Of a stretch of DNA of 64,000 nt, positions 11,147-39,872 are shown piece by piece. Origin of the DNA: Gluconacetobacter diazotrophicus PA1 5 (GTDB lineage: Bacteria; Pseudomonadota; Alphaproteobacteria; Acetobacterales; Acetobacteraceae); the NCBI RefSeq assembly GCF_000021325.1, contig NC_011365.1:3252001-3316000 (forward strand). Direction: 5' to 3'. The notes beneath the pieces were generated by a model, which saw only the letters and a program-made list of their open reading frames with translations, was not told where the DNA came from and did not search any database. A program made the translations under genes and the position numbers. The stretch's first letter is position 1. The number at the start of each line of letters is the position of its first letter.

Positions 11147-11802
11147 ACGTCATCTTTCTTGGCCCCCCCGGGGCCGGCAAGGGCACCCAGTCCAAGCGGC
11201 TGGAAGCCCGGTATGGAATTGCGCAGATCTCGACCGGCGACATGCTGCGGGCCGAGGTCGCGGCGGAAAGCGCGATCGGCAAGCAGGCCAGGGCGCTGAT
11301 GGATGCCGGGCAACTGGTGCCCGATGACGTCATCGTCGCCATGCTCGAATCCCGGATCGCGCAGCCCGATTGCGCCAAGGGATTCATTCTGGACGGATTC
11401 CCGCGGACCCAGGGGCAGGCGGTAGCGCTCGATTCGATGCTGAAGCGTCGCGGAGCCCGAATCGACGTTGTCCTGTTTCTGGAAGTCGACGAGGAGGCGC
11501 TGGCGGACCGGATCGCCGGGCGTTTCACCTGCGCGACCTGCGGAGCGGGATATAACGACCTGTTCAAGAAGCCCAAGGTGGAGGGCACCTGCGACGTCTG
11601 CGGCGGCCACAGCTTCGTGCGCCGCGAGGACGACCGGCGTGAGACCGTCGCGGCCCGCCTGGTGGCCTATCGCAAGCAGACGGCCCCGATCCTGCCTTAC
11701 TACGAGGCCGAGGGGCTGCTGCGCCGGATCGATGGCATGGCGGATATCGACACGGTGACGGCGAAGGTGTTCGAAATCATGGATGCGATCACGAAGAAGT
11801 GA
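11143..11802 (+). CDS. adk: Adenylate kinase (long, zinc-finger LID form)
   Basis: It interconverts ATP + AMP and 2 ADP. The P-loop [10 protein letters not shown] is at residues 7-16, the AMP-binding DGFPRT at 84-89. The LID carries four cysteines (130, 133, 150, 153) in CATCG and CDVCG, the zinc-binding type rather than the HSDT type of E. coli. The start is GTG 11143, overlapping the secY stop. Its 219 residues fit the long bacterial form. secY-adk linkage is conserved. Confidence 0.97.
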
Positions 11803-37607: not shown

Positions 37608-37916
37608 ATGACCGAATCCACCAGCGATACCTTCGTCGAAAAGGCCAAGGGCGTGGTCGAGGAAGGCACGGGGCGGGTGAAGGACGCGGCCGGCGGCCTG
37701 ACCGGCGACGTGGGAATGCAGGCCGAAGGCAAGGCCGACCAGCTGGCCGGCATGGCCCGGCAGGAATTCGCCGAACTGTATGAGGAAGGCGAGGGCAAGC
37801 TGGAACAGGCGGTGCTGTTCGTCCAGGACCGGCCGCTGGTGTCGATCGGCATCGCGGCGGCGGTGGGCCTGCTGATGGGACTGATCTTCGCCCCGCGCCG
37901 CAAGGCGAAGGGCTGA
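37608..37916 (+). CDS. CsbD-like stress protein with a C-terminal membrane anchor
   Basis: The 102-residue protein begins with a CsbD-like charged helical repeat (EKAKGVVEEGTGRVKDAAGG, then QAEGKADQLAGMA). The C-terminus, RPLVSIGIAAAVGLLMGLIF then PRRK, resembles the ElaB/YqjD (DUF883) tail, which anchors proteins in the inner membrane. The combination suggests a membrane-tethered stress protein. AAGGAGG precedes ATG 37608 and an EcfG motif lies upstream. Molecular role unknown. Confidence 0.85.
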   Translation: MTESTSDTFVEKAKGVVEEGTGRVKDAAGGLTGDVGMQAEGKADQLAGMARQEFAELYEEGEGKLEQAVLFVQDRPLVSIGIAAAVGLLMGLIFAPRRKAKG

Positions 37917-37928
37917 TTTCGGCCGGTC

Positions 37929-38047
37929 GAGTCGCATGACGGGCAAGATTTTTCCGTTTGAAAGGACTCGGCGTGGAATCAGCATCTTGCGCAACATGGC
38001 GTAAAGGTGGTTTCCATCCTTACTGGACGTGATTCGGCGTGCGAATC
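37929..38047. promoter_or_regulatory. Cluster of five GANTC (CcrM) sites in the rnhB-ccrM leader
   Basis: GANTC occurs at 37929-37933 (GAGTC), 37965-37969 (GACTC), 37976-37980 (GAATC), 38031-38035 (GATTC) and 38043-38047 (GAATC), five in 119 bases. CcrM methylates this motif, and in Caulobacter the ccrM promoter is tuned by the methylation state of GANTC sites in its leader. This may be an equivalent feedback region. Both rnhB and ccrM lie immediately downstream. Confidence 0.65.
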
Positions 38048-38088: not shown

Positions 38089-38763
38089 ATGCCGGATTAC
38101 ACACGCGAGATGCAGCATGGCGGCCGGGTCGCCGGGGTGGACGAAGTCGGTCGCGGGCCGCTGGCGGGGCCGGTGGTGGCCGCCGCGGTGATGTTCGATT
38201 CGGGCGTGCCCCGGCGCCTTGCCACCCAGCTTGACGATTCGAAGAAGCTGACCGAAGCGGCGCGGCTGCGGGCCTATGCCGCGCTGCATGCGGCGCGGGG
38301 GGTGCATATCGCGGTCGCCGCGGCCTCGGTTTCCGAAATCGCGCGGCTGAATATCCTGCGTGCCGCCTTCCTGGCGATGCGCCGCGCCGTGGCGCGGCTG
38401 CCGCACCAGCCCGACATGGTGCTGGTGGACGGCAATGCCGCGCCCGATTTCGGCTGTCCCGCGCAGTGCGTCGTCGGCGGCGACGGCGAAAGCCTGTCCA
38501 TCGCCGCGGCCTCGATCGTGGCCAAGGTGGTGCGCGACCGGCTGATGGCGCGGCTGTCCTGCCGCTGGCCGGGCTACGGGTGGGAGCGCAATGCCGGATA
38601 CGGCACCGCCGAGCATCGTGCGGCGCTGTGCCGCGCGGGCACGACCCCCCATCATCGCGAAGCGTTCGGGCTGGTTCGGCAACTGACGCTGGGGCTGGTG
38701 CCCGCGGCGGCGCCCGGGATGGCGCCGGGACTGGTCCCCGCCGTCCTGGAAGACGTGTCATGA
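38089..38763 (+). CDS. rnhB: Ribonuclease HII
   Basis: It removes ribonucleotides from DNA and RNA primers. The 224-residue reading has [19 protein letters not shown] with the first catalytic acids, [12 protein letters not shown], and [12 protein letters not shown], followed by [16 protein letters not shown] 38089 (MPDYTREM) follows GGATGGGGTGG; ATG 38080 and 38029 are in frame upstream. It overlaps ccrM by four bases (ATGA), a pairing conserved in alphaproteobacteria. Confidence 0.93.
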
Positions 38764-39872
38764 GCGGCGCGGTGATGATGGAATTGCCCCTGGACCAGAT
38801 CCTGCGCGGCGACTGCGTCGAACTGATGCAGACCCTGCCGACGGGGTCGATCGACTGCATCTTTGCCGACCCGCCCTATAATCTGCAGTTGCGCGGCGAA
38901 TTGCGGCGGCCCGACGACAGTGTCGTCGATGGGGTCGATGACGATTGGGACAAGTTCAGCGACCTGGCGGAATATGACCGCTTCACCCGGGCATGGCTGG
39001 GCGAGGCACGTCGCCTGCTGCGCAAGGACGGGACGATCTGGGTGATCGGGTCCTATCACAATATCTTCCGGATCGGCGCGATCCTGCAGGATCTGGGATT
39101 CTGGATCCTGAACGACGTGATCTGGCGCAAATCCAACCCGATGCCGAATTTCCGCGGGCGGCGGTTCACCAATGCCCATGAAACCCTGATCTGGGCGGCA
39201 CGGGGGGCGGACAGCCGCTATCGCTTCAATTACCAGGCGATGAAGGCGCTGAACGACGACGTGCAGATGCGGTCGGACTGGTACCTGCCGCTGTGCACGG
39301 GGGGCGAGCGGCTGCGCAATTCCCACGGGCTGAAGCTGCATCCGACGCAGAAGCCGGAAAGCCTGCTGCACCGGGTGCTGGTGGCCTCGACCAACGTCGA
39401 TGACATCGTGCTGGACCCGTTCGCGGGGACGGGCACGACGACGGCGATGGCCCGGCGCCTGCGCCGCCGCTTCATCGGCATCGAACGTCACCCCGATTAT
39501 GCCGAGGCCGCGATCGGCCGCGCCCGGCGCGAGCGCCCGGTGCCGCTGGACAGCGTGCTGACGACCCCCGCGAAGCGCGAGACCCCGCGCGTGCCCTTCG
39601 GCAGCCTGGTCGAACGTGGATTGCTGCCGGTCGGCACGGTGATGTACGATCGCCATCAGCGCGTGTCCGCCACCGTGGCGCCGGACGGCACGCTGGTCAG
39701 CGGCACGCAGCGCGGGTCGATCCACAAGCTGGGGGCGCTGCTGACGAACGCGCCGTCCTGCAATGGCTGGACGTTCTGGCACCTTCAGCGCGACGGGCAG
39801 ATGATCCCGCTGGATACGCTGCGCAACGAGGCGCTGTCCCTGGATGCCACCACCGAATCGCCGAAGGGCTAG
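38760..39872 (+). CDS. ccrM: Cell-cycle DNA adenine methyltransferase CcrM (GANTC)
   Basis: The 370-residue beta-class N6-adenine methyltransferase has DPPY at 37-40 and the SAM motif [10 protein letters not shown] around residue 220-230. The recognition part lies between them ([25 protein letters not shown]). The C-terminal roughly 85 residues match the RAMA/CcrM extension ([15 protein letters not shown]...). CcrM methylates GANTC late in replication in alphaproteobacteria and shapes CtrA and GcrA regulons. Linked to rnhB as usual. Confidence 0.95.

Follow-up and report, generated by a model that had tools for sequence, protein, structure and literature searches.

The leader of the rnhB-ccrM operon of Gluconacetobacter diazotrophicus PA1 5 carries five GANTC sites within 119 bp, which we regard, on balance, as a selected methylation-sensing control region through which replication-coupled negative feedback would limit the dose of CcrM. 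The sites lie in the window, i.e. the whole 64 kb stretch of DNA that was analysed, and all five, which an earlier note had placed directly before the ccrM operon, were confirmed (Table 1). The dose of CcrM is thought to require tight control, and the way in which bacteria other than Caulobacter adjust it is little known. A concrete hypothesis for ccrM leaders that lack the CtrA box of Caulobacter is provided by where the cluster lies, by how its place changes with operon structure and by the two-site promoter described below.

Table 1. Position of the GANTC sites, candidate promoter elements and genes of the rnhB-ccrM region in the window
Feature	Position	Strand	Remarks
CsbD-like gene	37608-37916		upstream neighbour of the site cluster
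GANTC site 1, GAGTC	37929..37933		flanked as CGAGTCG, matching the extended GcrA motif YGAKTCK; 12/12 congeners
Candidate -35, TTGAAA	37958..37963	+	relaxed promoter scan; 3/3 non-redundant congeners alike
GANTC site 2, GACTC	37965..37969		directly 3' of the candidate -35
GANTC site 3, GAATC	37976..37980		last base doubles as base 1 of the -10 candidate; same register in the class-wide promoter
Candidate -10, CAGCAT (rule CAnnnT)	37980..37985	+	relaxed promoter scan
Conserved block, GCATCTTGCGCAAC...TAAAGGTGGTTTCCATCC	37982..38019	+	between the site pairs; common to Komagataeibacter-like relatives
GANTC site 4, GATTC	38031..38035		flank TGATTCG fits YGAKTCK
GANTC site 5, GAATC	38043..38047		minus strand of CGAATCG matches YGAKTCK
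rnhB, ribonuclease HII	38089..38763	+	PF01351, E 3e-41; NF000595 above cut-off
ccrM, GANTC adenine methyltransferase	38760..39872	+	PF01555 and RAMA domains

The ccrM product matched the CcrM model NF050803 with 618 bits (E 3e-186), a score under the curated cut-off of 830 of this model, and the gene overlaps rnhB by 4 bp. The start of rnhB is likely to be the ATG at 38089, with ATGCCGGATTAC conserved among the congeners; with this start all five GANTC sites would be non-coding.

The window contains 113 GANTC sites in 64 kb. In a background sample of 800 kb, spread evenly over roughly two thirds of the same chromosome, we counted 1367 sites (1.71 per kb), so that 0.20 would be expected in 119 bp and the probability of five at one fixed place is approximately 2e-6. 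The sample contained no other cluster of five sites in 119 bp and a single cluster of four. The density is therefore far above expectation, as the earlier note had supposed, although its rarity is qualified by two other clusters. One of these, also in the window, lies in the coding region of adk in the secY-adk-rpsM operon and comprises five sites in 117 bp (11347-11463); the other comprises six sites within 98 bp at 3600947-3601044 of the chromosome. The leader cluster is very rare, yet not unique by density, and because the window holds the second five-site cluster in adk, density alone proves little. The adk sites are mostly retained in the 12 congeners, with up to 7 sites per approximately 195 bp and in differing codon frames.

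None of the five leader sites varied among the 12 congeneric genomes compared, a set which counts the window's own genome. Between the first and the last site, all 25 bases belonging to sites were invariant, compared with 58 of the 94 other columns (Fisher P 4e-5). The congeners are kin and the invariance of the sites is evidence from one lineage; the contrast between site bases and other columns is made inside the same sequences.

For a comparison across the class we assembled 217 partly redundant ccrM loci, from which 153 non-redundant leaders were obtained (31 acetic-type and 122 others); as the start codons follow a rule, the boundaries of some leaders may be inaccurate. Of 24 pentamers with identical composition, GANTC ranked first in either leader group, with an enrichment over composition of 5.9-fold in the acetic-type leaders and 4.2-fold in the others. 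Related ccrM-unit leaders are thus enriched, whereas background density in them was one of the outcomes that, according to the earlier note, would have refuted its proposal. Neighbouring sites were preferentially 9-11 bp apart, and a spacing of 11 bp was found 15 times in the acetic-type leaders (2.1 expected) and 30 times in the others (5.2 expected). The earlier note had spoken of a denser version in an acetic acid bacterium; the dense cluster is not confined to that group, since ccrM leaders in other lineages of the class reach 9-10 sites. At the other extreme, leaders with 0-2 sites are found in the non-acetous Acetobacteraceae and several other families, and the cluster is therefore dispensable for having ccrM. 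In the Acetobacter-type rnhB leaders L016, L019, L113 and L114 the GANTC sites form perfect inverted repeats, e.g. CGACTCGG...CCGAGTCG.

The location of the cluster depends on the structure of the operon. Where the gap between rnhB and ccrM is below 40 bp, which is mostly the case in the acetous Acetobacteraceae, the 200 bp before rnhB contain on average 4.0 GANTC sites and the region before ccrM 0.10. Where the gap is at least 40 bp the counts swap, with 2.7-2.8 sites before ccrM and 0.4-0.7 before rnhB. The cluster therefore tracks the promoter that drives the ccrM transcription unit, a relocation which is not predicted by chance, local composition or a role in rnhB. Across much of the class a GANTC cluster precedes ccrM, often within the promoter, and this suggests that the enzyme senses its own production after replication and limits it.

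In the non-fused leaders the close site pairs often share a common frame. A TTGAC element is followed by a GANTC site 2-4 nt 3' of the hexamer and by a second one over the -10 region, whose final C is the first base of a CAnnnT hexamer located 17 nt from the -35. The pattern TTGAC-N14-GANTCA occurs in 40 of the 122 non-fused leaders (about one third) as against 0.05 in shuffled sequences. When cases were picked by TTGAC-N14-GANTC alone, 41 were obtained, with A at -11 in all 41 and T at -7 in 40; these are the two most conserved bases of the -10 element and the search had imposed neither. Matches to the strict form span approximately 23 families in the class sample. The ccrM promoters of Niveispirillum and Novosphingobium are examples of a strict two-site form.

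Within genomes the strict pattern is rare (0-4 matches), and in 26 genomes 16 of 23 matches were located at ccrM. A class-wide scan covered 290 genomes, and 102 of the matches listed were scored. Among these, counting matches for which the position of ccrM is known, the form with a second GANTC in the spacer occurred 48 times at ccrM and never elsewhere. Eight two-site matches, three of which overlapped the 102 scored, were checked on fetched DNA; six were at ccrM and two had no ccrM downstream, while the other listed matches were one-site by eye. Among the matches listed, 54 of the 56 resolved two-GANTC promoters are therefore at ccrM, and by these counts the two-site form appears to be nearly confined to this gene. 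L295 and L301 carry the sole resolved two-GANTC TTGAC promoters without ccrM downstream among the matches listed. In the openly accessible literature searched we found neither the two-site promoter nor the dependence of its position on operon structure described, and we provisionally regard both as new.

The corresponding promoter of the window is a candidate with a spacer of 16 nt, in which sites 2 and 3 are in the class-wide register. The strict TTGAC promoter was found in none of the 31 acetic-type leaders. A relaxed form was found in 7 of them against 8.0 in a null of shuffled sequences with GANTC held in place, and its two-site version in 5 against 3.3; because the acetic group is not above the null, the promoter of the window is a candidate only. 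The window's own genome has no match to the TTGAC-type promoter and four to a looser TTG form, none of them at ccrM. Sites 4 and 5 lie downstream of the conserved block, and site 5 is an acetic-type site (GANTCGG) kept in many leaders. Other Acetobacteraceae carry a degenerate form of the block, CTTGC...AAAATGGTTTTCC. The block could pair with the ribosome-binding region of rnhB, one pair being broken in 2 of 12 congeners.

If the five sites sense methylation, passage of the replication fork would leave them hemimethylated and the rnhB-ccrM operon would then be transcribed. The new CcrM would re-methylate the sites and shut the promoter, so that the dose of the enzyme would limit itself. Methylation would accordingly alter promoter activity, full methylation reducing it, and its state would be read by RNA polymerase or GcrA. 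With conservation of the sites, their enrichment, their tracking of the ccrM-unit promoter and the promoter register all observed, the last in many lineages, a methylation-sensitive feedback on ccrM appears well supported comparatively. As for its sign, positive control by GcrA acting on methylated DNA would match the sequence about as well. We propose more tentatively that alphaproteobacterial ccrM may have a dedicated, near-gene-specific promoter with two CcrM sites set against its -35 and -10 elements, an intrinsic methylation sensor which would work without CtrA and make CcrM limit itself in each replication round; in acetic acid bacteria this control would precede the fused rnhB and have a reworked core.

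Known systems offer partial parallels. The ccrM promoter or leader of Caulobacter crescentus likewise contains GANTC sites, and the gene is stated to be transcribed exclusively from the hemimethylated chromosome (PMC2217572). It is, however, activated by CtrA, and the leader in the window differs from it in its many (five) sites. We searched for a CtrA box, as the full TTAA-N7-TTAA or as TTAACCAT, and found it in none of the 31 acetic-type leaders and in 4 and 3, respectively, of the 122 others, so that the arrangement differs from that of Caulobacter; instead, many lineages place GANTC sites within predicted sigma70-like promoters. Of the Caulobacter-like feedback loop suggested in the earlier note, what stands is that the sites are invariant in the genus, enriched in the class and track the promoter, whereas control by CtrA in the Caulobacter manner is unsupported. 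DnaA boxes were likewise absent from the 31 acetic-type leaders. A LexA box (GTTC-N7-GTTC, also with an 11-nt period) is absent from the leader in the window and occurs in 1 of the 31 acetic-type and 2 of the 122 other leaders.

The P1 promoter of Caulobacter ctrA has a GANTC site near -29/-28 and is active, with GcrA, when hemimethylated (PMC4287350, PMC2217572), but it serves another gene and has a single site instead of the two in the class-wide core promoter. The gcrA promoter of Agrobacterium tumefaciens is GANTC-dense, with six sites per 250 bp, and is reported to be repressed by CcrM methylation (PMC11514494), although it governs GcrA rather than the methyltransferase. A comparison published in 2010 counted GANTC upstream of cell-cycle genes and reported that methylation control was not derivable from these counts (PMC2877005).

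The sign of the loop could be the opposite if GcrA and sigma70 bind methylated GANTC and activate ccrM, so that methylation would support the synthesis of CcrM in a positive or hysteretic loop. The genome does encode gcrA alongside ccrM, and sites 1, 4 and 5 fit YGAKTCK, the extended GcrA motif (PMC7987155). In Caulobacter, promoters whose -35 and -10 elements flank a GANTC site fire at 40-60 min (PMC4287350). A site placed in this way occurs in 40 of the 122 class leaders, the window offering only a candidate promoter with a 16-nt spacer. Sites 2 and 3 of that candidate, however, do not match YGAKTCK, and a general GcrA promoter should recur widely, whereas the two-site promoter is almost restricted to ccrM among the matches listed. 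We therefore consider this explanation rather unlikely, though it is the strongest competitor of negative feedback. The gcrA leader of this genome contains one GANTC site.

It is improbable that the cluster has a non-transcriptional role, either as a local reservoir or sink of methylation which titrates or recruits CcrM or GcrA close to its own gene, or in the leader RNA. From 37986 onwards the leader has a better fold than shuffled sequences (z -4.0) and in the window sequence site 4 is able to pair with the start codon region of rnhB, but most congeners are predicted to fold otherwise, the consensus fold is without clear compensatory changes and the leader has no Rfam match. The fixed -35/-10 register in other lineages also favours transcription. 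RNA hairpins formed by complementary site pairs were rejected as a candidate, as complementarity of the middle bases of close pairs, found in 6 cases against 8.1 expected and in 23 against 18.1, did not clearly exceed expectation over the whole set. That an AT-richer leader happens to carry five GANTC sites, to which the comparable clusters at adk and at 3.60 Mb might point, is hardly credible; it is contradicted by the conservation of the sites among the 12 congeners, by an enrichment that exceeds those of 23 control pentamers and by the way the cluster moves along with the promoter.

A further GANTC site at 38236-38240 is situated inside rnhB, within the codons of the DDSKK motif, and is retained in nearly all examined Acetobacteraceae loci except those of the Roseomonas-like group.
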